From Deltaproteobacteria bacterium (lineage in GTDB: Bacteria; JAUYMQ01), in contig JAUYMQ010000100.1 of assembly GCA_030698575.1 (NCBI GenBank), positions 1-32,166 of the forward strand: 32,166 nt of DNA, in the 5' to 3' direction. The translations under genes and the position numbers were made by a program. A model generated the notes under the pieces. It saw only the letters and a list, made by a program, of their open reading frames with translations. It had not been told where the DNA came from and searched no databases. Shown here one piece after another: positions 4,882 to 30,667 of the stretch (the stretch's first letter is position 1; every line of letters starts with the position of its first letter).

Positions 4882-5886
4882 ATGTCGCGCTTTTTTCGAT
4901 CTGGCTTGATGGCAGTGGTGATCCTGAACATCGCTCTGGCGCTTTTCGCGTGCAGCCCCGACAAGGGGGGCGAGGAAGCCTCCCGGGAGGAAGGCGGGGG
5001 TGAGGTGGTGGCTTCCTACGGAGGCCACAAGCTCACGCTCGAGGAATTCGAGGCGGAGGTGAACAAGCTCCCGGAGCAGGTGAGGCCCATGCTTTCATCG
5101 CCCGATCGGCGCAAGCAGTTTCTGGAGACCTTCATCCTTAGCCAGCTCCTGATCGACGAGGCCAGGAAGAAGGGGCTCGACAAGGATGAGGAGATACGCA
5201 CCCAGGTCGAAGAGACCGAGAAGCGGCTTCTCCTCCAGCGCGCCTACGGCGACCTCCAGCAGGCCGTCGCCGTCAACGACGAGGAGATCAACGCGTATTT
5301 CAACGCGAATCCCGACGAGTTCTCCACGTCGGAAATACGGGCGAGTCACATTCTCGTCGAGGACGAGGCCACGGCGAAGGACCTGTTGACCAAGGCGAAG
5401 GCCAACCCGGACTCCTTCGAGAAACTCGCCAAGGAGTATTCGAAGGACACCGCCACCGCGTCCAACGGCGGCGATCTCGGCTTCTTCGGCCGCGGGCGGA
5501 TGGTGCCCGACTTCGAGGATGCCGCCTTCGTCCTGGTCGAGCCGGGCGAAATCTCGGAGGTGGTGAAGAGCCCCTTCGGCTACCACATCATCAAGCTGAC
5601 CGAGAAGAAGGAAGGCGAGAAGAAGCCCCTCGACCAGGTGAAGGAGCAGATTCGCGTCAAGCTTCTGCAGCAAAAGCAGGAGAAGAGCGTCGAGGAGTAT
5701 TTCGAGAAGCTGAAGGCCGACAACCAGGTGCGGATCAACGACGAGGTCCTTGCCAAGCTTTCCAATGCGCCTGCGGGCGCCGGGCAGTCGTATCTGCCAG
5801 GGGTTGGCGGCGGAGATGAGGCTCCGGAAGCCGGTGAAGCGCCCACGGAGGCGCCGGCGGAAGGTCCGGCGGAGGGGCAAGAGTGA
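4882..5886 (+). CDS. PrsA/PpiC-like lipoprotein peptidyl-prolyl isomerase
   Basis: 334 residues. The N-terminus is a lipoprotein signal: hydrophobic stretch 8-22 and lipobox LFAC with the lipidated cysteine at residue 24. A SurA/PrsA-type helical chaperone region follows (about 42-150, LTLEEFEAEVNKLP). One complete parvulin domain occupies about 151-240. Both conserved histidines are present (ASHIL His156, GYHII His235), as are GGDLGFFGRGRMVPDFEDAAF with the Met/Phe proline-pocket residues. The C-terminus is a flexible Pro/Glu/Ala/Gly tail. It presumably folds secreted or outer-membrane proteins in the periplasm while membrane-anchored. GAGGAA precedes the ATG by 5 bases. The stop codon overlaps the next start (GTGA), implying translational coupling to the SurA homologue. 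Confidence 0.9.
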   Translation: MSRFFRSGLMAVVILNIALALFACSPDKGGEEASREEGGGEVVASYGGHKLTLEEFEAEVNKLPEQVRPMLSSPDRRKQFLETFILSQLLIDEARKKGLDKDEEIRTQVEETEKRLLLQRAYGDLQQAVAVNDEEINAYFNANPDEFSTSEIRASHILVEDEATAKDLLTKAKANPDSFEKLAKEYSKDTATASNGGDLGFFGRGRMVPDFEDAAFVLVEPGEISEVVKSPFGYHIIKLTEKKEGEKKPLDQVKEQIRVKLLQQKQEKSVEEYFEKLKADNQVRINDEVLAKLSNAPAGAGQSYLPGVGGGDEAPEAGEAPTEAPAEGPAEGQE

Positions 5887-6878
5887 CCGAGAGGCGCAGG
5901 GGACCACGCATTCGAGTCCGCACGCTTCCAGCCCTGGCGGTGCTGTTGCAAGCGCTTCTCTGGGCGGCGCCTTCCGGGGGCGAGATCGTCGACGGCGTGG
6001 CCGCCATCGTAAACGACGACATCATCACGCTGAGCGAGGTCGACGCGGCGGGCGCGCCGATCTACCAGGAGATCATGAGGCGGTACGGCGACGAGGCGCA
6101 ACCCGAGATCGCGCGGGCCCGGCGTGAGGTGCTCGATCAGCTAATCAATCAGAAGTTGATGGAGCAGGTGATCGAAAAGTACGACATCACCGCCAGCGAG
6201 GGAGAGATCGACACTGCCATTGAGGACGTGAAGCGGCAGAACGGGATCACTCACGCAGATCTCCTGGAGGCGCTCCAGCGCGAGGGGATCACGTACGACG
6301 AATACCGCGACCAGGTGACGAAACAGATCCAGCGGACCAAACTCATGCGCCGCCAGGTTCGTGGCACGAAGGACACAAGCGACGCCGGCGCGCGCAAGTA
6401 CTACGACGAGAACCCTGAACTCTTCCAGCTGGGTGAGGAAGCGATGGTGGCGCATATTCTCATCGCCACGCCGCCTGCCGCACCGCCCGAGGAGAGGGCG
6501 GCGGCGCGAAAGAAAGCCGCGGCGGCCCTGGCAAGGCTGAATTCGGGGGAGGATTTCGGCGAGCTGGCCAAGAAGGTTTCGGCAGGCCCGACGGCGGCCC
6601 AGGGCGGTTCTCTCGGCTACATTCGCCGGGGGGACACGGTGCCGGATTTCGAGGACGCGGTCTTCTCGATGAAGAAGGGCGAGACGAGCGGGGTGGTGGA
6701 GACCAAGATCGGCTACCACGTCATTCGCGTCGAGGACAAGAAGCCTTCCCGCACCATCAGCTTCGAGGAGTCGAAAGAATCGATCAAGCGCCGGATGGCG
6801 CAGGAGGAGATCGAGACCGATTTTCAGGAGTGGCTCGAAAAGCTTCGAACCAGCGCATACGTCGAAAAGAAATTGTAA
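5883..6878 (+). CDS. surA: SurA-like periplasmic chaperone / parvulin isomerase
   Basis: 331 residues, starting at GTG inside the previous stop (4-bp overlap). A Sec signal covers about 1-33, with basic RRRGPRIRVR then a hydrophobic run and no lipobox. The SurA N-domain signature is VDGVAAIVNDDIITLSEVD (36-54), with helical chaperone segments to about 160. A single parvulin domain spans about 185-285, with AHILI (His191), GGSLGYIRRGDTVPDFEDAVF and GYHVI (His279) intact. A C-terminal helix closes the chaperone fold. E. coli SurA has two parvulin domains; this one has one. The likely clients are outer-membrane proteins such as the two barrels in this window. A terminator and pdxA follow; surA-pdxA adjacency is also found in enterobacteria. 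Confidence 0.88.
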   Translation: MTERRRGPRIRVRTLPALAVLLQALLWAAPSGGEIVDGVAAIVNDDIITLSEVDAAGAPIYQEIMRRYGDEAQPEIARARREVLDQLINQKLMEQVIEKYDITASEGEIDTAIEDVKRQNGITHADLLEALQREGITYDEYRDQVTKQIQRTKLMRRQVRGTKDTSDAGARKYYDENPELFQLGEEAMVAHILIATPPAAPPEERAAARKKAAAALARLNSGEDFGELAKKVSAGPTAAQGGSLGYIRRGDTVPDFEDAVFSMKKGETSGVVETKIGYHVIRVEDKKPSRTISFEESKESIKRRMAQEEIETDFQEWLEKLRTSAYVEKKL

Positions 6879-6888
6879 CCCGGAACCG

Positions 6889-6916
6889 GGGGGCTTCGGC
6901 CCCTCGTTGCTTTTTT
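6889..6916 (+). terminator. Intrinsic terminator after surA
   Basis: GGGGC (6890-6894), TTCG loop, GCCCC (6899-6903) forms a UUCG-capped stem. A run of six T follows at 6911-6916. It ends the mfd-proximal foldase unit, although pdxA begins only 40 bases later, so readthrough is possible. Confidence 0.7.
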
Positions 6917-6955
6917 GAACGCCGCCGTAGACGGGATGGCCAGGGAGGGCGCAGG

Positions 6956-7966
6956 ATGAAACCGCGGGTCGCCATCACGATGGGCGAGCCGGCCGGCGTC
7001 GGCCCGGAGGTGGTGGCGCGCGCCCTGGCGGACCGCCGGGTCTGGGAAGTCTGCGCCCCGATCGTAATCGGTCACCGGCGGCTTCTCGAGCAGGCGGCAA
7101 AGGCTCAGTCGCTCGAGGTGCGTTTCGTCGACGAGTTGCGCCCCCGCGCCGCAGCCGGGCCGGATGACGTGCCGGTGCTCCTGGGGGAGCTTTTTGATCC
7201 CGCGCTCGTGACCCCCGGCAAGCCGACCCCGGAGACTGGCCGTGCCGTCATTCGCTGGATCGAGGAAGCCGTGCGCCTGGCGCGCGGGGGAGAAGTGGAG
7301 GCGATGGCCACCGGTCCCATCGACAAGGCCGTGCTTAGCCGCGCGGGCTTCGGCTTCCCTGGCCACACGGAGTTCCTGGGCGCGCTCTGCGAGACTCCCC
7401 GGCCCGTCATGATGCTCGCGAGCCCTCGCCTGCGCGTGGTGCTCGCGACCATCCATATCCCTCTCTCGGCGGTTCCGGGACAGCTCGAGGCAGCCGATCT
7501 TCCGGGTCTTCTCCGGATCACTGATGCCGCCCTCAGGCGGGACTTCGCCCTCTCCCGGCCCCGCATTGCCGTGGCCGCCCTCAATCCGCACGGGGGCGAA
7601 GGCGGGATGTTCGGCGACGAGGAGGAGCGTCTCATCCGCCCCGCGGTGGAGGGCGCGCGCCGGGCCGGGATCGACGCCGTCGGACCCCTCCCGGCCGACA
7701 CACTTTTCTTTCATGCCCGCGAGGGGGCCTGGGACGCCGTGGTCTGCATGTACCACGATCAGGGCCTTATCCCGCTCAAGATGGACGGCTTCATGGAGGG
7801 AGTAAACGTGACGCTGGGCCTTCCCATCGTGAGGACCAGCGTCGATCACGGGACCGCCTACGACCTGGCGGGCACGGGCCGGGCGGATCCGGAAAGCCTC
7901 GTGGCGGCCCTCCGCATGGCCGCCGAGGTGGCTACCAATCGGGCTCGGATCGCCAAAAACTCTTGA
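6956..7966 (+). CDS. pdxA: 4-hydroxythreonine-4-phosphate dehydrogenase PdxA
   Basis: 336 residues, the normal PdxA length. It oxidises 4-phosphohydroxy-L-threonine with NAD in the DXP-dependent pyridoxal-phosphate pathway; it is a cytoplasmic dimer using a divalent metal. The N-terminus MKPRVAITMGEPAGVGPEV is diagnostic. Metal histidines sit in FPGHTEF (about 137), IHIPLS (about 166) and the MYHDQGLIPLK block (about 266). The C-terminal signature SVDHGTAYDLAGTG is near 297. I chose ATG 6956 because AGGGAGG lies 7 bases upstream and the family N-terminus begins there. The frame is open from 6830, but that portion encodes no PdxA-like sequence and overlaps the terminator. Confidence 0.96.
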   Translation: MKPRVAITMGEPAGVGPEVVARALADRRVWEVCAPIVIGHRRLLEQAAKAQSLEVRFVDELRPRAAAGPDDVPVLLGELFDPALVTPGKPTPETGRAVIRWIEEAVRLARGGEVEAMATGPIDKAVLSRAGFGFPGHTEFLGALCETPRPVMMLASPRLRVVLATIHIPLSAVPGQLEAADLPGLLRITDAALRRDFALSRPRIAVAALNPHGGEGGMFGDEEERLIRPAVEGARRAGIDAVGPLPADTLFFHAREGAWDAVVCMYHDQGLIPLKMDGFMEGVNVTLGLPIVRTSVDHGTAYDLAGTGRADPESLVAALRMAAEVATNRARIAKNS

Positions 7967-12920: not shown

Positions 12921-14360
12921 ATGAAGGGAATAGCTTCCATCTGCCTGCCCCGCTGCGAGCGTTCGACTCTCCTGCAGGGCGTGATGTTCCTCGGGCTCGC
13001 CTTCACCTGGCTCTTCCTTGCGGGCTCGGCCCGCGCGGACGAGCTGGCCGAGATCGCCTTCACCGAGGGACTTGTCGCCGTCAAGACCGGAGCGCCGGAA
13101 GAGGCGGTCGAACGGCTCGGCGAGGCGACGCAGCGGAACCCTGAGGACGCCGTCGCCTGGTACTGGCTGGGGGTGGCGCACGCCCGGCTGGATGAGAAGG
13201 AGGCGGCGCTCGAAGCCTTCGATCGTGCCCTCGCGCTCGACCCGCGGTTCGCCGAAGCCTCCTATGCCCGGGGAAACGTCCTCAACAGCCAGGGAGACGA
13301 GCGGGAGGCCAAGCTCGCGTGGGATCAGGCTGCAGCCCTGGCTCCCGGTTCGGACCTGGCCCGAAGGGCGCGTGAAATGGGCGACGTGCCGCGCCCCCCC
13401 GATGCGTCCGGACGAGACTGGTATGCCGACGCCGGGATGGGGGTCGAGTACGATACGAACGTCTTCCTTTATCCCAACCAGGGCGATGCCCCTGTGGTCG
13501 GGGGGATCGGCGGGAAGCGCTACCGCCCGAGTGATCCGATCCAGGACACCCGCTTCGTCTTCTACGTCGACGGCGGCTACCGGCTCTTCGGTGGCGACAA
13601 CTGGTCGATCAATACCCATCAGTCGTTTCAGGCTGGCGTCCAGGCGCGAAGCGAGGATGTGAATTATGTCGAGTACAGGCCGTCTCTTTCGCTGCTCTAT
13701 GACGCCGACCCGCTGACCTTCGGCCTGAGCTACACCTTCACGCTCTTCGGGCTGGGCGGCGAGGTCCTCAGTGTCAGCCATGAGGTGGAGCCGAGCGTGA
13801 CGCTCAGGGAGGGCAACCGGAGCTACACGCGCCTGTTCTACCGTTACACGCGCAATGACTTCGTGGATGACGTCGCGTCGAATTTTGATCTTTCCGGGAA
13901 TGATCACCGCGTGGGAATAGACCAGTATCTTCTGCTCTTCGACCGGAGAGGCTATGCGCGCCTGGGGGTGGAGTTTCGACGGGATCTCACCGACGGATCG
14001 GAGTATTCGGGAAGCTACACGACCCTTGGCGGCGAGATCCTGGCCCCGATCCCCGGCGACGCCACTCTGCGGCTGGAGGCCGCGCAGCGCTGGGCGGACT
14101 TCGACAATGACAGCGCCTTCAGCATTCCCAACACAGTGTTCTTCGTAATGGGCCCGACCTTCAACCGCACCATCGTGCCGGTGCGCACGGGTGATCCGAA
14201 GAACGAAATTCTCACCACCGTAAGCGCGACCGTATCGCGCGAGTTCGGGGATCACTGGAGCGCCTCAGCGCGCTACATCTATTCTGTGAATCAATCGACC
14301 ATCCAGACGTACGATTACAACCGGAGCATCTTCTCTGTTTTCGCGAACTACCGTTTCTGA
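12921..14360 (+). CDS. TPR/outer-membrane beta-barrel protein
   Basis: 479 residues. Signal peptide 1-39 (AGSARA-D). Periplasmic TPRs cover about 44-145 (AEIAFTEGLVAVKTGAPEEA; AVAWYWLGVAHARLDEKEAA; AEASYARGNVLNSQGDEREA). From about 165 on there is an alternating amphipathic beta-strand pattern opening with YADAGMGVEYDTNVF and ending in the aromatic signature FANYRF, as expected for a BAM-inserted barrel. TPR plus barrel with a 'G..YDTNV' opening recalls the DUF560/Slam-like architecture, but substrate export cannot be inferred. GAGAGGAGGG gives a strong ribosome site 6 bases before the ATG. A FecR protein and a CHASE2 cyclase follow, suggesting one module. Confidence 0.85.
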   Translation: MKGIASICLPRCERSTLLQGVMFLGLAFTWLFLAGSARADELAEIAFTEGLVAVKTGAPEEAVERLGEATQRNPEDAVAWYWLGVAHARLDEKEAALEAFDRALALDPRFAEASYARGNVLNSQGDEREAKLAWDQAAALAPGSDLARRAREMGDVPRPPDASGRDWYADAGMGVEYDTNVFLYPNQGDAPVVGGIGGKRYRPSDPIQDTRFVFYVDGGYRLFGGDNWSINTHQSFQAGVQARSEDVNYVEYRPSLSLLYDADPLTFGLSYTFTLFGLGGEVLSVSHEVEPSVTLREGNRSYTRLFYRYTRNDFVDDVASNFDLSGNDHRVGIDQYLLLFDRRGYARLGVEFRRDLTDGSEYSGSYTTLGGEILAPIPGDATLRLEAAQRWADFDNDSAFSIPNTVFFVMGPTFNRTIVPVRTGDPKNEILTTVSATVSREFGDHWSASARYIYSVNQSTIQTYDYNRSIFSVFANYRF

Positions 14361-14405
14361 TCGCCACGAATGGGCGACATCACCGCCGATGCAAGGAGAA
14401 TCTTC

Positions 14406-15251
14406 ATGAGTCATTCACGACTTGGCGCCCTCGCCGCCGGGCTTGCGGTCCTGAGCATGCTCTCGGCTCCCCCCGCCCTCGCCCAGGCGGTGGGCAAAAG
14501 CGTTGCGACAGTGGCGGAGAGGGCCCTCCCGGCGGAGGTGAAGCGGTCGGGGCAGACCGACTGGGCGGAGATCGAGGACGGGGGTGAAGTCCTTCTCGGT
14601 GACACGCTCCGCACCGGCGAGGGCGGCAGGCTCAAGATCGTGTTCAACGACAAGAGCATCATGATCCTGGCCGAGAACACCCTGCTCGAGATTACCCAGC
14701 ACGTCTATGATCCGGCCGCCAAGGAGCGCACGTCGCTCTTCAAGCTCTATGAGGGAAAGGTGCGAGCGATTGTGGGTGAGCTGTTCGGGGCCCAGTCGAG
14801 GTTTGAGATCGAGACGCCCGTGGCAGTGGCGGGCGTGAAGGGCACCGACTTCGAGACTCATCACCCGAAACCCTGCAGCACGGTTTACACACAGCTCGGC
14901 GACTCGTATGCCAGGAACGTCAATCCGGCCGTCAGTGGTGACGTGGTCGTACCGGGCGGATTCATGACGACCATCTGCGAGGGCGCGAAGCCCACGGACC
15001 CGGTGGAGGCTTCGGAGGAGTTCCTCGAGGGGACGATCCCGCTGCGGGGGCTCGACACGACGCGGCCTGGAACGCCGCCCATGGACGGCTTTCCGCCGCT
15101 TGGGCCGGACAACCAATTGCCTGGAAAGCCCAACATCCCTCCGGGTCCGCAGCCGAACATTCCACCCACGAGCACGGGCGGGCTGCCGCCAGGTGGCGCG
15201 CCGGTCACGCCGCCGCCGCCCAGGCCCATCGTGAACAACACGATGCAGTAA
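14406..15251 (+). CDS. Secreted FecR-domain protein
   Basis: 281 residues. Signal peptide about 1-26 (PALAQA). The FecR domain (about 45-150) shows ALPAEVKRSGQTDWAEIEDG, VLLGDTLRTGEGGRLKIVFND, the KLYEGKVRAIVG turn and ETPVAVAGVKGTDFE, the hallmark 'tP.a..gvRGT.f' motif. After it come two cysteines (KPCST and TTICEG) flanking a short insert, a possible disulphide in the periplasm. The C-terminal 80 residues are a Pro/Gly-rich low-complexity tail. I chose ATG 14406 because AGGAGA precedes it by 6 bases and the signal peptide starts there. It lies 45 bp after the TPR-barrel gene and before a strong terminator. The role is likely envelope sensing or scaffold; no iron-dicitrate gene is nearby. 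Confidence 0.88.
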   Translation: MSHSRLGALAAGLAVLSMLSAPPALAQAVGKSVATVAERALPAEVKRSGQTDWAEIEDGGEVLLGDTLRTGEGGRLKIVFNDKSIMILAENTLLEITQHVYDPAAKERTSLFKLYEGKVRAIVGELFGAQSRFEIETPVAVAGVKGTDFETHHPKPCSTVYTQLGDSYARNVNPAVSGDVVVPGGFMTTICEGAKPTDPVEASEEFLEGTIPLRGLDTTRPGTPPMDGFPPLGPDNQLPGKPNIPPGPQPNIPPTSTGGLPPGGAPVTPPPPRPIVNNTMQ

Positions 15252-15295
15252 TCCCTCATCGCCGCGTGCCGCGCGCGCGGCGCGTCCCGGAATGG

Positions 15296-15330
15296 ACAGA
15301 AGCCCGAGGGCGCCCCCCTCGGGCTTCTGT
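15296..15330 (+). terminator. Strong hairpin terminator after the FecR gene
   Basis: A perfect 15-bp stem: ACAGAAGCCCGAGGG (15296-15310) pairs with its complement at 15316-15330 across a 5-base loop. The right arm is pyrimidine-rich (CTTCTGTTAT). It separates the TPR-barrel/FecR pair from the cyclase gene. Confidence 0.8.
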
Positions 15331-15413
15331 TATGCCGGGCTGCCTCAAGTTCTCGGGAACGTGTTAAGGTTGGCTTGCTGGAGCGTTACACCCCGCCTCT
15401 GGGAGAGGAATAG

Positions 15414-17582
15414 ATGCGTGGCTGGCTGAGCCCGAGCGGCTGGAAGATCGGCCTTGCTTGCGCCGTCATATCGCTGGCTCTCTGGTACGCGGGCATTGCC
15501 TTCCTGCAGGACATCGAACTCAAGACCGTCGATGCGCGTTTCCGTCTCCGCGGCGTTCGGGATGTCAGCGATCGGGTGGTGATAGCCGCCATTGACGAAC
15601 GGAGCATCGACGCGCTCGGGCGATGGCCCTGGCCCCGGTCGGACATCGCCGCGCTGGTCGACAGCCTGAAAGACCTCGGCGCGCGCGTCATCGCCTTCGA
15701 CATCGTTTTCGCCGAACCTGAGCGAAACCACCCCGAAAACGATCAAATGCTGGCCGAATCGATCGAGCGGGCCGGCAACGTCGTGCTCGGTTACTACTTC
15801 CGCACGGCGCAGAAACGGCGGTATGCGGGCCCGACGAAGGGTCCTCCGGACGACCTCGCCAAGGAAATAGCCGTGGAGGAGGCGAAGCGCTTCAACCAGG
15901 CCCTCGCGGCGGTGTCAACCTCGCAGGTCTCGATCCTGCGGATGACCGAGGCGCCGCGAACGCCCGGGCAGTGCTCGGGCGTGGAGCCCAACATCCCCAT
16001 CATTGGCGGCGCATCCAAGGCCATGGGTTACTTCAGTATTCAGCCCGACATAGACGGCGTGGTGCGCCGCATCCCGCTTGTGCTCTCCTGTCGTGACGAC
16101 TACTACACCTCGCTCTCTCTCCGAGCCACGTCGGCTTATCTCGGCAACGCCCCGATCGCAATCGATCTCCGGAGAGACGGCATCCGATCCCTCACCGTCG
16201 GCCCGGGGCGCGTGAAAGTGGACGAGGCGGGCTTTCTGCGCGTCAACTTCCCGGGCCCTGCGCAGTCCTTCGCGTATTACTCCGCGGTGGATCTCATCCG
16301 CAAACGCGTCAACCCCGACGCGGTGCGCGACCGGCTGGTTATCGTCGGCTCCACAGAACTCGGCATCGAGGATATCCGTCCGACCCCCTTCGGCCCGGTC
16401 GTTCCGGGGCCGGAGGTCCAGGCGGCGGCCATCGAGACCATTCTCCGTGGATCTTTCATCCAGCGGGACAACGCCATCATTCTTGCCGACGTGCTCATGG
16501 TGTTCATCCTCGGCGTGGGGCTTGGCGGACTGTTCGGCCGCCTGCCCAGCGCCGTGCACCGTGCCGAGGCTTTTCTTCTTGCATCCATCCTGTTCATCGC
16601 CTGGCAGGGGTTCTCCTTCGGAAAGCTCGGGCTGCAGTTCAACACCCTTTACCCGGGCATCTCCCTCGGCCTCACCTACCTCGGCGTCAGTCTTTATGAG
16701 GCCTTCGGCATCGAGGCAAGCAGCCGCCGGACGCGCGCGGCCTTCGAGGCCTACGCGCCCCCGGAAGTCGTAGAAATGATCGTCAAGGATCCGGCGCGGC
16801 TGGTGCTCGGGGGAGAGCGGCGTGACATCTCGGTCCTGTTTTCGGACATCGAGGGCTTCACGACGCTCTCCGAGGCCCTCGCGCCGGAAGAGGTCGTGCG
16901 GCTGCTCAACACCTATCTCACACCCATGACCGAACTGGTGTTCGAGCACGGCGGCACGCTCGACAAGTACATCGGCGACGCCATCATGGCCATCTTCGGA
17001 GCGCCGATCGACGCGGCTGACCATTCCGAACGCGCATGCCGGACCGCGCTCCAGATGATGAAAGCGCTCGACGCGTTGAAGGATCAGTCCTGGTTCGATC
17101 GTGGCTGGCCCGACATACAGATCAGGATCGGCGTCAGCTCGGGTCCCATGGCGGTCGGGAACATGGGTACCGACATGCGGTTCGCCTATACCGCCATCGG
17201 CGACGGCGTGAATCTGGCGTCGCGGCTGGAGGGACTCAACAAGGATTACGGCAGCCGCATTCTTATCAGTGAGTTCACGCGCGATCAGTTGAAGACGGTG
17301 TTTTCCGTGCGAGAGATTGATGTGGTGCGCGTGCGTGGAAAGCGGGTGCCTGTGCGCGTGTACGAACTGCGCGGTGAAGGAGTCCCATCGATGGAGGAGG
17401 CGCGCTTCATCAGCGACTTCGAAGAGGGGCTGAAGGCCTTCCGATCCCAGCGTTACGATCTTGCCCGCGAGCGCTTCCGCTCCTGCCGGGAGCAGCAGCC
17501 CGAGGATGGCCCCGCGCGAGTGATGCTGGCGCGGTGCGACGCGGCCGAGAGGAAGCAGGATCTCGAAAAGGCGGCGCTCTGA
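15414..17582 (+). CDS. CHASE2-domain class III adenylate cyclase
   Basis: 722 residues. One N-terminal TM (about 11-30), then a periplasmic CHASE2 sensor (about 35-345; VDARFRLRG, VIAAIDERSIDALGRWPWPR, VIAFDIVFAEPE). Three further TMs follow at about 353-375, 384-402 and 411-430. The cytoplasmic class III cyclase domain is about 465-630. Metal aspartates are Asp478 (LFSDIEGFT) and Asp522 (IGDAIMAIFG). Lys518 (LDKYIGD) and Thr593 (AYTAIGD) are the adenine-selecting pair, and Asn600/Arg604 (VNLASRLE) the transition-state residues, so the enzyme should be active and make cAMP. The C-terminus (about 665-720) has a TPR-like helical pair. GGGAGAGGAA precedes the ATG. The gene ends 15 bp from the convergent CBS gene. 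Confidence 0.95.
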   Translation: MRGWLSPSGWKIGLACAVISLALWYAGIAFLQDIELKTVDARFRLRGVRDVSDRVVIAAIDERSIDALGRWPWPRSDIAALVDSLKDLGARVIAFDIVFAEPERNHPENDQMLAESIERAGNVVLGYYFRTAQKRRYAGPTKGPPDDLAKEIAVEEAKRFNQALAAVSTSQVSILRMTEAPRTPGQCSGVEPNIPIIGGASKAMGYFSIQPDIDGVVRRIPLVLSCRDDYYTSLSLRATSAYLGNAPIAIDLRRDGIRSLTVGPGRVKVDEAGFLRVNFPGPAQSFAYYSAVDLIRKRVNPDAVRDRLVIVGSTELGIEDIRPTPFGPVVPGPEVQAAAIETILRGSFIQRDNAIILADVLMVFILGVGLGGLFGRLPSAVHRAEAFLLASILFIAWQGFSFGKLGLQFNTLYPGISLGLTYLGVSLYEAFGIEASSRRTRAAFEAYAPPEVVEMIVKDPARLVLGGERRDISVLFSDIEGFTTLSEALAPEEVVRLLNTYLTPMTELVFEHGGTLDKYIGDAIMAIFGAPIDAADHSERACRTALQMMKALDALKDQSWFDRGWPDIQIRIGVSSGPMAVGNMGTDMRFAYTAIGDGVNLASRLEGLNKDYGSRILISEFTRDQLKTVFSVREIDVVRVRGKRVPVRVYELRGEGVPSMEEARFISDFEEGLKAFRSQRYDLARERFRSCREQQPEDGPARVMLARCDAAERKQDLEKAAL

Positions 17583-22804: not shown

Positions 22805-23398
22805 TCAGCGGGAGAGCGCCTTCTCCCACCGGATACGGCAGGGGTAGCGCTCGAGGCCGGGCTTCCAGGCAGCCATTTCAAGCTCCGTGGCGGAGCCGCC
22901 GGCCAGCTCGACGGTCTTGTTCAGGAAGCCCTGCGCGATGAGATAGAGCGGGTAGGGAAGATCGGGAAAATCCTCGATGTCCATGTCGACATAGTTCGAG
23001 TCCTGCGGCGCCGCCGCCTTTGGCGGTATTGCATAGTTCACCTTGCCGAAGTTGAAGCAGTTCTTCCAGAAGACGGGAAAGAGCTTCAGGGTCGCCGCTG
23101 GATCGCCCGGCTTCAGATACATGCTGTAGGGGCCCATGAGCAAGGAGGAGGCCATGAACTGCCCCATTCCGCGAGCGGCGTCGTCCTGCGCGTTAGAGAG
23201 CTTGTTGAAGATGACGTCGAGCGTGCGCTCGTAAACTTCGTAGGGATACCAGGAGCTGGGGAGAATGTAGGACATAACGACTTCACGGATCTCGGGCGAG
23301 AATTCCTCGAGCAGGCTCTCGTCCTTGGCGCGCCGCAGGATTCGAACATGCTGGGCGACCAGCGTTCCCTTGGCCTTGCGAGGCTCCCGTTCTGCCAT
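22805..23398 (-). CDS. Hypothetical protein, possibly V4R/DUF2378-like
   Basis: 197 residues, soluble, no signal. GAGAGGTGAGGGG before ATG 23398 makes the start clear. The sequence runs LPSSWYPYEVYERTLDVIF, then GMGQFMASSLLMGPYSMYLKPGDP, FWKNCFNFG, a beta stretch, QGFLNKTVELAGG, and ends LERYPCRIRWE. This order (helical half, 'f.fG', short beta segment, 'G.l......aGG', C-terminal 'C.i.W') is that of the V4R/heme-NO-like superfamily and of the myxobacterial DUF2378 group. I offer this as a pattern match only. It lies 89 bp after the lipoprotein gene on the same strand, so it is probably cotranscribed. Confidence 0.7.
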   Translation of the reverse strand: MAEREPRKAKGTLVAQHVRILRRAKDESLLEEFSPEIREVVMSYILPSSWYPYEVYERTLDVIFNKLSNAQDDAARGMGQFMASSLLMGPYSMYLKPGDPAATLKLFPVFWKNCFNFGKVNYAIPPKAAAPQDSNYVDMDIEDFPDLPYPLYLIAQGFLNKTVELAGGSATELEMAAWKPGLERYPCRIRWEKALSR

Positions 23399-23487
23399 CC
23401 CCTCACCTCTCGTGGATACTCTCGATCCATCGGTCCGGAAGGGGCAGGGCTTGAGCGGGCGAGGCGGGAGGGGGCACTGGAGGGGGG

Positions 23488-24165
23488 TCAGTTCGTGGCG
23501 GGCTCGGCCTGGGCTGTACCGGCCTCTGTCAACCCGGAGTCGGAGAACTTCGCAAGATCTTCGCCGATGCGGGTGGCCACACTGTCGCAAATCGCCAACA
23601 TCTGTCCATGCAGGAGTCCCCGGATCGGGCCGTAGACGAGTCCTCCCGTCCAGACGGGGATCTTCTGGAGCCCCTGGTTGCGGACCTGCTCGTGACTCGA
23701 CTCAACCAGGAGCTTGCCCGTCCTTCCATCATAAATCTTCACGCGCATCCCGACGCGGGCCACGGATTGGATCAGGTAATAGCTTCGGTCCCGGGCGAAG
23801 AGTTCGGGCTGGATCACGAGGTCCGCAGCCAGCGCCTGTCCGGCGCGGGCCATCTCCGCCTCGCCCTCGACCGGCCCTTCGCTGAGCGGAATCGCGCGAT
23901 CAACGCGCGGAAGGGAAATTAACTGATAGGCGTCTTGCGGGATTTTCATCGCGAGGCACCCGCGAACTTCTTCCAGGAGGTCGTAGCTGAAGTCGGGCAC
24001 TTCCTCCCCTTCAGCGGGGCTCGCCGGAATCACGGGAAGCAGCACCGCGCGCCACGGCGGTGGCCCGGAAGGATTGCCGGTTTTCAGGTAAACCGGTTCC
24101 GAGGCGCACCCTGCCGCCAAGAGCGCCAGCACCGCGAGCGCGGTGGTGGTTCCGGAACGCGTCAT
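23488..24165 (-). CDS. Lipoprotein, GNA1162/LpoB-like
   Basis: 225 residues. Lipobox LLAAGC with lipidated Cys20. The mature part has AVLLPVIPAS near its start and later MRVKIYDGRTGKLLVESSH and GLVYGPIRGLL. This is the 'vaVlP ... v.d..tGkll' arrangement of the CsgG/GNA1162/LpoB group of envelope lipoproteins. ALAADLVIQPELF occupies the position where that fold usually has 'adaVi.g.i'. Ala at +2 favours the outer membrane by the E. coli rule. The start ATG overlaps the preceding stop (ATGA), so it is translationally coupled to the first lipoprotein. Function unknown; a paired complex with its neighbour is plausible. Confidence 0.85.
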   Translation of the reverse strand: MTRSGTTTALAVLALLAAGCASEPVYLKTGNPSGPPPWRAVLLPVIPASPAEGEEVPDFSYDLLEEVRGCLAMKIPQDAYQLISLPRVDRAIPLSEGPVEGEAEMARAGQALAADLVIQPELFARDRSYYLIQSVARVGMRVKIYDGRTGKLLVESSHEQVRNQGLQKIPVWTGGLVYGPIRGLLHGQMLAICDSVATRIGEDLAKFSDSGLTEAGTAQAEPATN

Positions 24166-24953
24166 CTAACGCCCCCCGCCCCACTTGCGAGGGCCCCGCC
24201 GTCCCCTTCGACCTCCGCTGCCTTCTCCAGGCTTCCGCCCGTTTCATCGAGGGGCTCCGGGATGGTCTCGAGGAGTTTGCGAACCGCCACGTCGGCGGTG
24301 CGGCGGTAGGCCGCGGGCAGGTCCTTGTTCTTCGGCTCCTCCATCCAGATGTCAGCGACGAAAAGATTGATGAACATCCCTCCCCGCGCTCCTTCCCACA
24401 GCCGCCCCGACCAAAGCACGTCGCCGGTGCTCGCCTCGACCAGTCGGAACGTCCCCTCGTAAACTGTGTGGGAGTAGACGTAGAGCGTCATGTTGCGGGT
24501 GCGTTTCACGTCGCAGTAGAGCAGTACTTCGGCGCCCGTGATTCTGCCGAGCGTGTCCGGGTTCATGCCGGGGATCTTGTCGGGCGTGATTCCCGCCTCC
24601 GCAAGCCGCCCGTCGACGTCCGCGAGCGGCACGACGCCGTAGCTGCGCAGCCGGCTGAGCGCCAGATCGAAGCTCGCGCGGAGCGTGTCGATGGCCTCCT
24701 CGCGCTCGGCGTTCGTGCCCTGCTCGGCGACAAAGGGAAGCACGGCGATCCTGCCCTGGCTGGTCTGCATGCGATCCTGCGCGCCGCCCACCGTGACGCT
24801 CGACTCGTAAAAGGGAAGCGGATAGATGCGATGGGCCCACTCCCAGCTGCAGCCGGGCAGGGCGAAAAGGAGAATCAGGATCGAGATGACGAGCGCGGGT
24901 CGCGGAGCGATAGCGGCGCGATCTGAGTCGGGTGTGGCGTGGGGGGAGGGCAT
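24162..24953 (-). CDS. Lipoprotein, GNA1162/LpoB-like, first gene of leftward unit
   Basis: 263 residues. A long N-terminal region (about 17 residues) precedes the hydrophobic segment, then lipobox ALPGC with Cys35 and Ser at +2. The mature domain has GRIAVLPFVAEQG, LRSYGVVPLADVDGRLAEAG, ITGAEVLLYCDVKRT and RLVEASTGDVLWSGRLW. This is the same fold type as the next lipoprotein and the classical 'iavlpf ... gad.vl.g ... v.a.tG.vlw' pattern. A low-complexity Gly/Ala/Glu tail ends the protein. It has no Shine-Dalgarno sequence. A TTGACA-18-TAGACT promoter ends 9 bases before the ATG, so the transcript probably has almost no leader. Confidence 0.85.
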   Translation of the reverse strand: MPSPHATPDSDRAAIAPRPALVISILILLFALPGCSWEWAHRIYPLPFYESSVTVGGAQDRMQTSQGRIAVLPFVAEQGTNAEREEAIDTLRASFDLALSRLRSYGVVPLADVDGRLAEAGITPDKIPGMNPDTLGRITGAEVLLYCDVKRTRNMTLYVYSHTVYEGTFRLVEASTGDVLWSGRLWEGARGGMFINLFVADIWMEEPKNKDLPAAYRRTADVAVRKLLETIPEPLDETGGSLEKAAEVEGDGGALASGAGGVR

Positions 24954-25038: not shown

Positions 25039-26712
25039 ATGAAGCGCGCATTGCTATTCTCCGCCCTCCTCCTGCTGGCCGACGCCTTTTCGCTGCCCGT
25101 GCCCGCGCTCGTTTTCGCTGCCACCGATGACGTGCCTGAATCGCTTCGTGAGGCAGGCGAAGCGCTGGGCCGGGAGGTTCCGGAGTCGCCGAAGGAGGGC
25201 GAAGATGAAGCGGCGCCCGCCCGGGCAGTTCCGCCCGAGGTGCAGGCGATTCTCTCCAAGGGGAACCGCTTCTATGCTCTGGGAGATTACGACGCCGCCC
25301 GGGTGCAGTATCTCGAGGCAATCAGAAAGGATCCGGGATCTCCCGAGGGCCACTACGGGCTCGGGATGACCTACCTCGCGCTGGGCGATGTGAACGCGGC
25401 GATCATCGCCTGGCGACGAGCCGGCGGGGTCGATTCGGTGACTGCGGGGCTGTTCGACGAGTTCCGGAGTTTCCGCTCCGCGCGCGACGCGGTGCAATCG
25501 CAGCTCATGGCCACCCGCCGAAGCCAGGCTGAGGCGGTGGCGCGCGAGGAGCAGCCGGTGAGCGAGCGCTACGTGGGGCGCGGCGCGAGCGGGCTCTTCG
25601 ATTCATCCAACCGGGCCATGCTTGGGCGCCTCGACATTCCGCCGGAAGAGGAGACGGATACCCGGGCGCAGGATGGCGAGCTTCCTCCGCTGGGCAACAC
25701 CGCCTTTCCCCCGCCCCCGGATGCCGTCGCCGGGGAAGATCTTGCTCAGGAGCAGCTCCCGAGAGCCGCCACGGAAATGCCGCTCTCGGTTCAGAACGTG
25801 CCCGACACGCCGCGACCCGGGGGGCCGGCGCCTCCGGCCGTCGCCGCTCTCAGCCCCGAGCAGGCCGCCGACCCGAAGGCGCGGGGCATCTACTATGTCC
25901 AGACCGGAAACGATCAGGGCGCGGTGACCGCCTTCGAGGAGGTCCTGGCCACGGACCCGCGCGACAGCGATGCACTGAGCTACCTGGCCGGGCTCTATCT
26001 GGCGGGCGGGCGCGCCGACGATGCGGAAGGGGCCTACAAGCGCCTCGCCCGGCTCGAGCCGGCCTCGAGCGTGCCTCTCACCAACCTGGGAGGTCTGTAC
26101 TTGAATCTCGGCCGATTCGATGAGGCATCGACGACGCTCCAGGAGGCGCTGCGGCTCGACCCGTCGGATTCGCTGGCCATCAACAACCTGGCGGGCGTCT
26201 ACTACAAGACGGGCCGTGTCGATGACGCCGTCCGCGAGCTTAATCGGGCCATCGAGATCAATCCGGAGGATCTGAACTCACATAACAACCTGGCGGGCAT
26301 CTACTACCGCCAGGAAAGATTCGAGAAGGCCATCGAGGAGCTGCAGAGAATCCTGTCTCTCGATCCCTCGCACGCTGTTGCTGCCGCGAACCTCGAGGAA
26401 GCCTACAAGCGCAAGCGTGAGTTCGAGTCCGCCCGCAGTGAGCGGAAAATGCGGGCGCGCCAGATCGTGCTCCCTTCCGAGGAGGAAGCGAAGGCCGTTC
26501 GCGCGGAGATTCAGGACGGAAATGACTTCGTGCGGCTCGCCCGCGAGCGGAGTATCGATCAGACGGCGGCGAAAGGCGGCGATCTCGGTTTCTTCGACAA
26601 GGGCGATCTGGACAGCGAGGCGGAGGAAGCCATCCGCAAGCTCGCCCCCGGCGAGATCTCCGGTGTGGTGAAAACCCCCGGCGGCTACAGCATTTTTCAG
26701 CGGCTCGACTGA
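25039..26712 (+). CDS. TPR protein with degenerate parvulin domain
   Basis: 557 residues. Signal peptide about 1-28 (PALVFAA), so periplasmic. One TPR pair at about 66-130, a 150-residue Pro/Ala/Glu-rich linker, then five TPRs at about 280-455 (e.g. SLAINNLAGVYYKTGRVDDA; LNSHNNLAGIYYRQERFEKA). Residues 471-557 align along their length with the parvulin domains of the two foldases in this window (RARQIVLP, AKGGDLGFFDKGDL, LAPGEISGVVKTPGGYSIFQ). Both active-site histidines are replaced (Gln475 for ASHIL, Ser551 for GYHII). The Met/Phe pocket of 'MVPDFEDAAF' is lost as well. It is therefore probably a binding module, not an isomerase. Divergent from the lipoprotein unit. Confidence 0.9.
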   Translation: MKRALLFSALLLLADAFSLPVPALVFAATDDVPESLREAGEALGREVPESPKEGEDEAAPARAVPPEVQAILSKGNRFYALGDYDAARVQYLEAIRKDPGSPEGHYGLGMTYLALGDVNAAIIAWRRAGGVDSVTAGLFDEFRSFRSARDAVQSQLMATRRSQAEAVAREEQPVSERYVGRGASGLFDSSNRAMLGRLDIPPEEETDTRAQDGELPPLGNTAFPPPPDAVAGEDLAQEQLPRAATEMPLSVQNVPDTPRPGGPAPPAVAALSPEQAADPKARGIYYVQTGNDQGAVTAFEEVLATDPRDSDALSYLAGLYLAGGRADDAEGAYKRLARLEPASSVPLTNLGGLYLNLGRFDEASTTLQEALRLDPSDSLAINNLAGVYYKTGRVDDAVRELNRAIEINPEDLNSHNNLAGIYYRQERFEKAIEELQRILSLDPSHAVAAANLEEAYKRKREFESARSERKMRARQIVLPSEEEAKAVRAEIQDGNDFVRLARERSIDQTAAKGGDLGFFDKGDLDSEAEEAIRKLAPGEISGVVKTPGGYSIFQRLD

Positions 26713-27078: not shown

Positions 27079-28497
27079 ATGGAGACGCTCGGAAAGGCAA
27101 CGATCGGAAGCGCAATGAAGGCGTTTCGCCGGGGGGTCGTCGTTGCAACCAGCTTGGCGACGACCGCCGTTCTTGTTCCAGCCGCGTGGGCCGGTGATCC
27201 GTCGAACACCGAGATGGTCAAAGAGTTCCAGAACATGAAGAGCGAGATCCGGGCGCTCCAGCAGAAAACCAACACCCTGGAACTGCGGAACGCGGAGAAG
27301 GACAGCCAGATCAAGTCGCTCGAGGGCCAGGTGCAGAAGACGAACGAGGATCTCACCGGCATGTCGGCCTACAACTTCGTAAAAGACGTCGAGGTTTCCG
27401 GCTACGTTTCGACCATCTTCACGGACACGCTGACAAACCCGAGCGATCAGACACGGCGGCTCGGCGTGTTCGAGACCAACTCGCACAGCTTCAACAACTC
27501 GGCCTTCAAGCTGGTGTTCGAGAAGCCGACCTCGAACGAGAGCCGGGCCGGCTTCCGCGTGGACATTCTGAGCGGCGAGACGGGACGCCTTCTCGGAAAC
27601 GCTACCTCGGACGTTCCCACTGGAAGCACGGGGCTCGACGACTTCGAACTGGAGCAGGCCTACGTGACCTACAAGGCCGACCTCGGCGACGGGCTCGACA
27701 TCTACGCCGGCAAGTTCGTGACGCTCCTCGGCGCGGAGGTCATCGAGAGCCCGCTCAACTACAACATCAGCCGATCCATTCTCTTCGGCTTCGCGATTCC
27801 CTTTACGCATACCGGCATTCGCGCGACCTATCCCCTCACCGACAAGATCAGCGTAACGGCGGGCGTGAACAACGGCTGGGACAACAACGATGACCTGAAC
27901 CACGGCTACAGCTATGAGGGCCAGGTGGCCTGGTCGCCGAACGACGACTTTTCCCTCTCGGTGAACGGTATCTGGGGACCGGAGCAGGTGGGTATCGAGC
28001 GGCGCAAGCGCGGCGTGGTGGACGTCGTGGCGAACTGGACCCCGACGGACAAGCTGACCTTGATCGGCAACTTCGACTGGGGCCACGAGTCGGGCGTCAC
28101 CGTTACCCACGAGAACATCATCTACGTGACGGAGCCCGACCCCAACGCGGTTCCACCATTCTCCTCCAATATGATCACCGCCGTAGATCAGTCCTATAAC
28201 AGCAAGACGGTGGCCGACTGGTACGGCGGCGCGCTGGTGGCGAACTACCAGTTCACCGACCGGTTCGGGCTTGCAGGCCGCGCCGAGTACTTCGTGGACG
28301 CCGACGGATCGCGCACGGGCTTGTCTCAGGACCTGTGGGAGTTCTCGGTCACTCCCGCCTTCTGGGTGACGCCGAAGCTCCTCGCGCGCCTCGAGTTCCG
28401 CACCGATCATTCGAGCGATAAGTATTTTCTGCAGGGATCCCAGCCGGCCAATCACCAGGAGACGGTGTTCGGCGAAGTTGCATACCTCTTCCCTTGA
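27079..28497 (+). CDS. Outer-membrane porin, BBP2-like, nitrogen-regulated
   Basis: 472 residues. Signal peptide about 1-38 (second Met at 13; AAWAG cleavage). A coiled coil spans about 44-92 (MVKEFQNMKSEIRALQQKT...), as in porins tethered to peptidoglycan by an N-terminal helix. The rest is antiparallel amphipathic beta: VEVSGYVSTIF, YVTYKADLGDGLDIYAGKF, LLGAEVIESPLNYNISRS, GIRATYPLTDKISVTAGVNN, ending FGEVAYLFP. The 'GK...LG.E..e...N.n.srs' block is typical of the BBP2 (beta-barrel porin-2) group. AGGGGAGGAG lies 5 bases before the ATG. Sigma-54 control and the downstream PII gene suggest uptake of a nitrogen source, probably ammonium or a small organic N compound. Confidence 0.88.
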   Translation: METLGKATIGSAMKAFRRGVVVATSLATTAVLVPAAWAGDPSNTEMVKEFQNMKSEIRALQQKTNTLELRNAEKDSQIKSLEGQVQKTNEDLTGMSAYNFVKDVEVSGYVSTIFTDTLTNPSDQTRRLGVFETNSHSFNNSAFKLVFEKPTSNESRAGFRVDILSGETGRLLGNATSDVPTGSTGLDDFELEQAYVTYKADLGDGLDIYAGKFVTLLGAEVIESPLNYNISRSILFGFAIPFTHTGIRATYPLTDKISVTAGVNNGWDNNDDLNHGYSYEGQVAWSPNDDFSLSVNGIWGPEQVGIERRKRGVVDVVANWTPTDKLTLIGNFDWGHESGVTVTHENIIYVTEPDPNAVPPFSSNMITAVDQSYNSKTVADWYGGALVANYQFTDRFGLAGRAEYFVDADGSRTGLSQDLWEFSVTPAFWVTPKLLARLEFRTDHSSDKYFLQGSQPANHQETVFGEVAYLFP

Positions 28498-28502
28498 CCT
28501 GA

Positions 28503-28889
<387 letters not shown>

Positions 28890-28937
28890 TCCGTCGCGAC
28901 ACAACCGAGCGAGGGTGGGCGGTCGAGCCCGCCGCGG

Positions 28938-28963
28938 AAAGGCAGGCCTTCGGGCCTGCCTTT
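28938..28963 (+). terminator. UUCG-capped intrinsic terminator after PII
   Basis: Perfect 11-bp stem AAAGGCAGGCC (28938-28948), TTCG loop, GGCCTGCCTTT (28953-28963). The loop is closed by C-G, the exceptionally stable UUCG tetraloop form. It ends the porin-PII transcript. Confidence 0.88.
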
Positions 28964-29025
28964 GCTTTGGGCCTCCCAAACCGCTCCGGGAGTTGCCCGG
29001 CCGTCCGTGCGGGGCGTCCCGATGC

Positions 29026-29042
29026 TGCTTAAAAACTGTGCA
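29026..29042. promoter_or_regulatory. NtrC-like site upstream of amtB
   Basis: TGCTTAAAAACTGTGCA is 17 bp with one near-consensus half (TGTGCA versus GGTGCA) and a partial left half (TGC). Its centre is about 118 bp upstream of the expected sigma-54 start. Confidence 0.3.
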
Positions 29043-29097
29043 GCTGCCTCTGGCCTGCGCAGGGCACACCCGGCGGCCGGCACAAAAAGGTCTTGTA

Positions 29098-29110
29098 AAT
29101 CAAGAGTTTT
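29098..29110 (+). promoter_or_regulatory. IHF-like site between enhancer and sigma-54 promoter
   Basis: AATCAAGAGTTTT matches WATCAANNNNTTR at all defined positions but the last. It is centred about 48 bp upstream of the predicted start. The same bases form a small hairpin TCTTG-TAAAT-CAAGA followed by GTTTTTT, so a terminator reading is possible too. Confidence 0.4.
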
Positions 29111-29125
29111 TTGGACTTCCGGGTC

Positions 29126-29141
29126 TGGCACGGACATTGCT
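29126..29141 (+). promoter_or_regulatory. Sigma-54 promoter of amtB
   Basis: TGGCACGGACATTGCT is a full match to TGGCACG-N4-TTGCW, with GG and GC 10 bases apart. The start is expected near 29152, about 106 bases before the GTG. Confidence 0.88.
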
Positions 29142-29257
29142 TTGGGGAGAGCGGGGTTCACATATCTGTTCCAGTCCATCGACCCTCGGGGACGACGAGG
29201 CGGGCCTGGCGCCGGACAATCGAGCCGGAAAGGTCGGGCCCCTGACAGGAGGTAGAC

Positions 29258-30667
29258 GTGAGGCGCCTTGAACGAATACTCAGCGCAACCGCATTCGGGG
29301 CGCTGCTGACGATTTTGCTTCCCGTAGCGGCGCTGGCCCAGGAAGAGGCTGTGGTGGACAGCGGTGACACGGCGTGGATTCTCACCTCGTCGGCGCTCGT
29401 TCTGATGATGACCGTTCCCGGCCTGGCCTTCTTTTACGGCGGCCTGGTCCGGGGAAAGAACGTGCTCTCGACGCTCATGCACAGCTTCGTGATGATGGGT
29501 ATTGTGTCGGTATCCTGGATCCTCTGCGGCTACTCGATCGCCTTCGGTCCGGACGTCGCGGGGCTGTTCGGCAACCCGCTGACCCATCTCGGGCTGAAAG
29601 GGATCGGGCCGAATGACGTCTCGGGGTCGATACCGACTTATGCCTTCGTGGTCTTCCAGCTCATGTTCGCGATCATCACGCCGGCGCTCATAAGCGGCGC
29701 CATCGCGGAGCGGATGAAGTTCAAGGCTTACTTGCTCTTCATGATTCTCTGGGCCACGTTCATCTACGCGCCGCTCTGTCACTGGGTGTGGGGCGGCGGC
29801 TGGATCGCCGAGAAGTGGGGAGCCCTGGACTTCGCGGGGGGCACGGTCGTGCACATCTCCTCGGGCGTGAGCGCGCTGGTTGCCGCGATACTGCTCGGCC
29901 GCCGCCGTGGCCACGGTTCCGAGCCCATGCCTCCGCACAATCTCGCCTACTCCGTCCTCGGAGCCGGCCTGCTGTGGGTGGGCTGGTTCGGCTTCAACTC
30001 GGGAAGCGCGCTCGCCTCGAACAGTCTCGCGGCAACGGCGTTCATCACGACGAATACGGCGACCGGCGCCGCGGTGCTCGGATGGATGTTCACAGAGTGG
30101 ATCCACCGCGGCAAGCCGACAATGCTCGGTGTAGCCTCCGGTGCGGTGGCGGGCCTGGTGGCCATTACGCCGGCGGCGGGCTTCGTGAGCCCTATGGCCG
30201 CCATGCTCATCGGAGTCGTTGCGGGCGGTCTGTGCTACGGGGCAGTGAACCTGAAGGCCAGGTTCGGCTATGACGACGCGCTCGACGTGGTTGGCGTGCA
30301 CGGCGTCGGCGGGACCTGGGGAGCTCTGGCGACGGGCGTGTTTGCCTGGACAGCCATGAACGACGGCGGGAGCAACGGGCTCATCCACGGCAATCCGGGC
30401 CTGCTGCTCACCCAGCTCAAGGCGGTCCTGGCTACCTGGATCTTCTGCGGCGTGGGCACCTTCGTGCTGCTGAAGATCACCGACATGATCGTTGGACTCC
30501 GCGTCAACGACGAGGACGAGGTCATGGGGCTCGACATCACACAGCACAGCGAACAGGCCTACACCGGCGCGGGTTTCGGTGGCTCGGTCATGGGCATGGT
30601 GGGCAGCCATCAGCCCAGCGTGGAGAAGCCCGCGGCGCTGGGAATACCTGCCCGCAGCACGCCCTGA
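29258..30667 (+). CDS. amtB: Ammonium transporter AmtB
   Basis: 469 residues. A cleavable signal-like N-terminus (LPVAALAQ) is followed by the eleven-helix Amt fold. Landmarks are DTAWILTSSALVLMMTVPGLAFFYGG, ERMKFKAYL, CHWVWGGGWI, DFAGGTVVHISSG with Asp191 and pore His199, and DVVGVHGVGGTWG with the second pore His348. The twin-His pore is intact. The C-terminal cytoplasmic region (RVNDEDEVMGLDITQHSEQAYTG) is the part bound by PII in known Amt proteins. GTG start with AGGAGGT 5 bases upstream. The 258 bp after it hold no gene, only a bulged GC hairpin near 30690-30720 and no convincing promoter. Confidence 0.97.
   Translation: MRRLERILSATAFGALLTILLPVAALAQEEAVVDSGDTAWILTSSALVLMMTVPGLAFFYGGLVRGKNVLSTLMHSFVMMGIVSVSWILCGYSIAFGPDVAGLFGNPLTHLGLKGIGPNDVSGSIPTYAFVVFQLMFAIITPALISGAIAERMKFKAYLLFMILWATFIYAPLCHWVWGGGWIAEKWGALDFAGGTVVHISSGVSALVAAILLGRRRGHGSEPMPPHNLAYSVLGAGLLWVGWFGFNSGSALASNSLAATAFITTNTATGAAVLGWMFTEWIHRGKPTMLGVASGAVAGLVAITPAAGFVSPMAAMLIGVVAGGLCYGAVNLKARFGYDDALDVVGVHGVGGTWGALATGVFAWTAMNDGGSNGLIHGNPGLLLTQLKAVLATWIFCGVGTFVLLKITDMIVGLRVNDEDEVMGLDITQHSEQAYTGAGFGGSVMGMVGSHQPSVEKPAALGIPARSTP

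Follow-up and report, generated by a model that had tools for sequence, protein, structure and literature searches.

Gene and domain layout of the TPR-parvulin protein

We analysed a stretch of 32,166 nucleotides (hereafter the window), contig JAUYMQ010000100.1 of a Deltaproteobacteria bacterium whose genome assembly (GCA_030698575.1) amounts to 4.13 Mb in 653 contigs; the closest relatives compared share only its taxonomic domain. An open reading frame on the forward strand (25039-26712) starts with ATG and encodes a 557-residue TPR protein with a C-terminal parvulin domain. The gene stands alone in the window. Upstream and divergently oriented are two genes for GNA1162-like lipoproteins with an unassigned reading frame beside them (22808-24953, reverse strand), and downstream, after 366 bp, genes for a BBP2-type outer-membrane porin, a P-II regulator and an ammonium transporter follow in a row (27079-30667). 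No neighbour or operon was common to the loci across the phyla compared. A folylpolyglutamate-synthase-like neighbour found in the phylum of genome G249 was considered as a conserved partner and rejected, as it is absent from the window.

The protein is predicted to begin with a hydrophobic signal peptide (residues ~1-28, MKRALLFSALLLLADAFSLPVPALVFAA; 25039-25122), which was recognized by eye, and the N-termini of its relatives likewise carry signal peptides or lipoboxes. This segment is followed by an N-terminal TPR pair (residues ~71-135; 25249-25443), matched by Pfam TPR_11 at 75-116 and TPR_17 at 91-122, by a linker rich in Pro and Ala, as judged from its composition (residues ~200-275; 25636-25863), and by the main TPR array (residues 280-445; 25876-26373), which was assigned from Pfam TPR families and from AlphaFold2 helices with pLDDT values of 97-99. 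Among the Pfam families listed for the protein there was no match to SurA_N; TPRs were found instead. A long capping helix (residues 446-469; 26374-26445) then runs straight into strand beta-1 of the parvulin module, which occupies residues 471-557 (26449-26709) up to the end of the chain. In the AlphaFold2 model of residues 270-557 (mean pLDDT 92.6), the TPR superhelix, the 24-residue capping helix (H177-200 of the construct) and beta-1 (from E202) succeed one another with no flexible linker. This arrangement agrees with a preliminary description of the locus, in which the parvulin domain was proposed to be coupled to a TPR array, probably periplasmic.

The same description had assigned residues 471-557 to a parvulin domain and placed it at 26443-26712, a span that correctly runs from residue 469 to the stop codon. 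Our searches confirmed this assignment. The domain matched the Pfam families PF00639 (Rotamase; 62 bits, E = 9.4e-17), PF13616 (E = 4e-14) and PF13145 (E = 3.5e-9), and a sequence search of the PDB recovered Bacillus subtilis PrsA (1zk6, E = 5.4e-14, with the whole domain covered) and Escherichia coli PpiD (2kgj, E = 4e-11). An AlphaFold2 model built from the window sequence and sequences of related loci adopted a parvulin fold with pLDDT values of ~90-98 across the block, and in Foldseek it matched PrsA (4wo7, E = 3e-10) and PpiD (2kgj, E = 1.2e-7, 37% identity), the outcome expected under the structural check that had been suggested. Both the profile match and the beta-alpha3-beta-alpha-beta2 fold of the PF00639/PF13616 family were thus found, and the Pfam, PDB and fold searches together rule out a chance similarity to parvulins.

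Active site of the parvulin domain

Residue checks and alignment with the parvulins encoded at 4882 and 5883 in the window and with the P1 and P2 domains of E. coli SurA placed Gln475 (26461-26463) at the first conserved histidine position (Pin1 His59) and Ser551 (26689-26691) at the second (Pin1 His157), so that both family histidines are changed, as had been noted previously. The accompanying statement that the Met/Phe proline pocket is gone holds for the phenylalanine, which is replaced by Ala528 (26620-26622); the methionine is replaced conservatively by Leu524 (26608-26610). Because leucine is common at this position among relatives that retain both histidines, only the loss of the phenylalanine is unusual: alanine at position 528 was found in none of the 66 sampled TPR fusions (Phe in 52, Ile in 7, Val in 7). 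Glutamine at the first histidine position is common also in ordinary parvulins whose second histidine is intact. The informative changes are Ser551 in combination with Gln475 and Ala528.

The window domain thus departs from the canonical combination of both histidines and a Met/Phe pocket at Q475, S551, L524 and A528. To describe it as lacking catalytic residues was nevertheless somewhat overstated, since Asp507 (26557-26559), which is kept at the position of Pin1 Cys113 and the bacterial Asp (alignment; equivalence table in PMC12524980), is retained together with Thr546, Leu516 and Phe519; the active site is therefore eroded rather than erased. The glycine/aromatic core of the domain is intact. 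The genome also encodes three further parvulins with intact histidines, so isomerase function is available elsewhere.

Parvulin domains that lack isomerase activity have been reported before. No such activity was found for the PpiD parvulin domain (PMC9797188, PMC6468809) or, in vitro, for Streptococcus pneumoniae PpmA and Lactococcus lactis PmpA (PMC3307742), and in the latter two both histidines are replaced (residue table in PMC12524980), as they are in the window domain; PpmA and PmpA differ from the window protein in being Gram-positive lipoproteins of PrsA architecture, without TPRs. TbPar42 is inactive, yet still binds peptide (PMC6468809). The histidine state nonetheless predicts activity imperfectly, since SurA P1 is without isomerase activity (PMC6468809) with both histidines present in our alignment, and single histidine mutants of Pin1 kept about half of their activity (unpublished data quoted in PMC6557836).

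A chain-terminal module marked by Arg555

The preliminary description missed the two stable features of the domain, its chain-terminal position and Arg555 (26701-26703). This arginine is invariant in all 66 TPR fusions, whose chains end 0-2 residues past the domain match, whereas among 31 other parvulins from the same searches it occurred in only one, an SH3b module protein. In a larger set, Arg555 was present in 69/69 module sequences and in 0/26 ordinary parvulins; the search profiles included the arginine, which introduces a recruitment bias, although these profiles also brought in the ordinary parvulins. A tree placed the 69 module sequences on one side of a branch and 29 ordinary parvulins, of the SurA/PrsA/PpiD type, on the other (SH-aLRT 98), and when the last columns, which contain the arginine region, were removed, the one-clade tree outscored the free tree and was not rejected. 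The alignment of this short domain has 97 columns; the order of the deeper branches is not firm, and neither is the position of the window protein, on its long terminal branch (0.8). The window protein carries Arg555, ends within 0-2 residues of the domain, has an N-terminal TPR scaffold and groups with the module clade.

PrsA/SurA-type parvulins share the fold of the window domain and include its closest solved structures. In contrast to the module, however, they lie between N- and C-terminal chaperone segments, have long tails after the domain and lack Arg555; their second histidine, lost in the window domain, is kept in 28 of 29.

Full-length TPR-parvulin fusions were found in only a handful of genomes across a spread of 386, and a scan of the contigs of the window genome gave mostly TPR-only matches. 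Within particular phyla the fusion is frequent: matches were found in 15/16 genomes of the phylum of G249 (two of them contig-end fragments), in 45/64 of the phylum of G282 and in 3/6 of the phylum of G055 (two of them weaker). A module-only profile matched 71/82 genomes of the phylum of G045, some of the weaker matches having the frame lengths of ordinary parvulins. In the best-scoring loci read from this phylum, the module lies behind an SH3b domain in exported proteins of ~180-200 residues, and in family f280 of the same phylum it lies behind a TPR array. The SH3b proteins resemble the window protein in their chain-terminal module with Arg555 and, in some, in having Ser, Asn or Ala at the second histidine position; they differ in their SH3b scaffold and small size. 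Counting that of the window, at least five phyla have the chain-terminal parvulin module, borne on TPR arrays or SH3b domains. On inspection, long-frame matches in ten further genomes proved not to be TPR fusions. Dead parvulin domains are already known; the chain-terminal family borne on TPR or SH3b scaffolds in bacteria is apparently undescribed, as full-text literature searches, which mostly did not extend to subscription papers, returned no description of it.

Two groups of loci illustrate the variation. In loci L227-L256 of the phylum of G045 (e.g. L228, L234 and L236), which combine SH3b with the module, the second histidine position holds His, Asn, Ser or Ala, and the equivalent of Arg555 never varies. 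Five loci of family f269 encode a second TPR-parvulin paralogue that has both histidines intact and ends in R-[IT]-Y; several of these paralogues look like lipoproteins (lipobox Cys).

The second histidine was missing in 29/69 modules as compared to 1/29 ordinary parvulins (Fisher p = 7e-5, for sequences that are not independent). It was absent from 16/44 TPR modules, with Met, Val, Ala, Ile, Phe or Ser in its place, and from 13/25 SH3b modules, with Asn, Ser or Ala, and its loss requires at least 6 changes on the tree. Double loss is seen in the window protein (Gln/Ser), family f219 (Met/Ala), family f270 (Tyr/Ile-type) and genomes G198 and G401 (Gln/Val and Gln/Phe). Orthologues with intact histidines had been expected to count against a non-catalytic domain, an objection that applies in part: many module relatives are His/His or Gln/His, and the loss is therefore lineage-specific and recurrent rather than family-wide. 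Since other relatives keep both residues, the ancestral module probably had canonical histidines.

In the f270 genus g351, which shows the Tyr/Ile-type double loss, omega was 0.077 for the parvulin part and 0.149 for the TPR part (simple pairwise counting). The parvulin part of this double-loss genus is under purifying selection. By analogy with this sister lineage and with the double-loss parvulins that were inactive when tested, the fold may likewise have been selected without isomerase activity in the window lineage.

Possible role of the module

We assign a probability of roughly 0.6 to the reading that, by analogy with PpiD, a periplasmic TPR scaffold here carries the module as a binding head with weak catalysis or none. 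The protein would be exported as a scaffold that is probably periplasmic, as the predicted signal peptide suggests, and in this lineage its module would have little or no isomerase function left. Since the fold and the module-specific Arg555 are kept, the module would most likely bind or dock peptides or proteins from its place at the end of the TPR superhelix and, as proposed for the inactive parvulin of PpiD, would serve as a holdase-like or adaptor component of envelope protein biogenesis. E. coli PpiD (2KGJ) offers a parallel: it is periplasmic, has a parvulin fold without both histidines and is inactive in assays, and its dead pocket is predicted to dock DsbA by burying a DsbA phenylalanine (PMC9797188). 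Unlike the window protein, PpiD has a transmembrane anchor, its parvulin domain is internal, and the chain continues past it with no R-x-x end. Against this reading, no conserved neighbour ties the gene to envelope biogenesis, the histidine state is an imperfect guide to activity, and with Asp507, Thr546, Leu516 and Phe519 retained, Gln and Ser could still form hydrogen bonds.

The retained residues also speak for an isomerase of altered chemistry, in which Asp507, Thr546, Gln475 and Ser551 would form a weaker hydrogen-bond network and a pocket of Leu524, Ala528, Leu516 and Phe519 would accept another residue. The residual activity of the single Pin1 mutants (PMC6557836) agrees with this proposal, as does the frequent occurrence of first-position glutamine among ordinary parvulins that keep the second histidine. 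However, the window domain has lost both histidines and the pocket phenylalanine together, and the double-loss proteins PpiD, PpmA and PmpA were inactive when tested; we regard this reading as unlikely.

Still less probable is that the domain is a decaying, functionless remnant tolerated at the chain end. The long terminal branch, an alanine at 528 that none of the other sampled TPR fusions shares and the drift of the second histidine in many lineages would fit decay, but the glycine/aromatic core and Arg555 are intact, the fold is confidently predicted, sister double-loss lineages show purifying selection, and the module is retained in most genomes of two phyla. A purely structural cap, which would stabilize the final TPR without binding a ligand itself, would account for the capping helix running into beta-1 and for an invariant Arg555 beside a variable pocket, but is very improbable, as the same module is found on SH3b scaffolds without TPRs and a cap alone leaves the many His-intact relatives unexplained.

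The binding-head reading can be extended, more tentatively, to the whole family: a portable chain-terminal module, marked by an invariant arginine three residues short of the chain end, may have acquired, in at least five phyla, a new use as a recognition head without catalysis, carried by envelope scaffolds of the TPR or SH3b type. Because the active-site histidines are freely lost and the arginine-centred surface is fixed, the conserved ligand or partner site would in that case be the Arg face, not the isomerase pocket. Discussions of why periplasmic chaperones retain dead parvulin domains usually draw on PpiD and SurA only. In the module family, His/His, Gln/His, His/Asn and doubly lost forms occur naturally on related scaffolds, together with an invariant arginine outside the active site. 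Whether it is the fold, the pocket or some other surface that selection preserves can therefore be tested directly.

PpiD works beside a separate TPR protein, YfgM (PMC9643414), whereas the TPRs of the window protein are in the same chain. That this chain replaces the YfgM-PpiD pair, as a 'Rosetta stone' fusion, is a weak proposal, because a His-intact parvulin chaperone of the general PpiD type (C326) is encoded separately in the genome, a profile search with PF09976 (TPR_21, YfgM) gave no clear YfgM in the window genome and no listed match at the TPR-parvulin locus, and in G449 a TPR_21-type protein is encoded near the TPR-parvulin gene.

Elsewhere in the window, a SurA-type chaperone gene is directly followed by pdxA (5883-7966), the surA-pdxA order of E. 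coli K-12, and genes for a TPR protein, a FecR-domain protein and a CHASE2-adenylate/guanylate cyclase lie in a row at 12921-17582.
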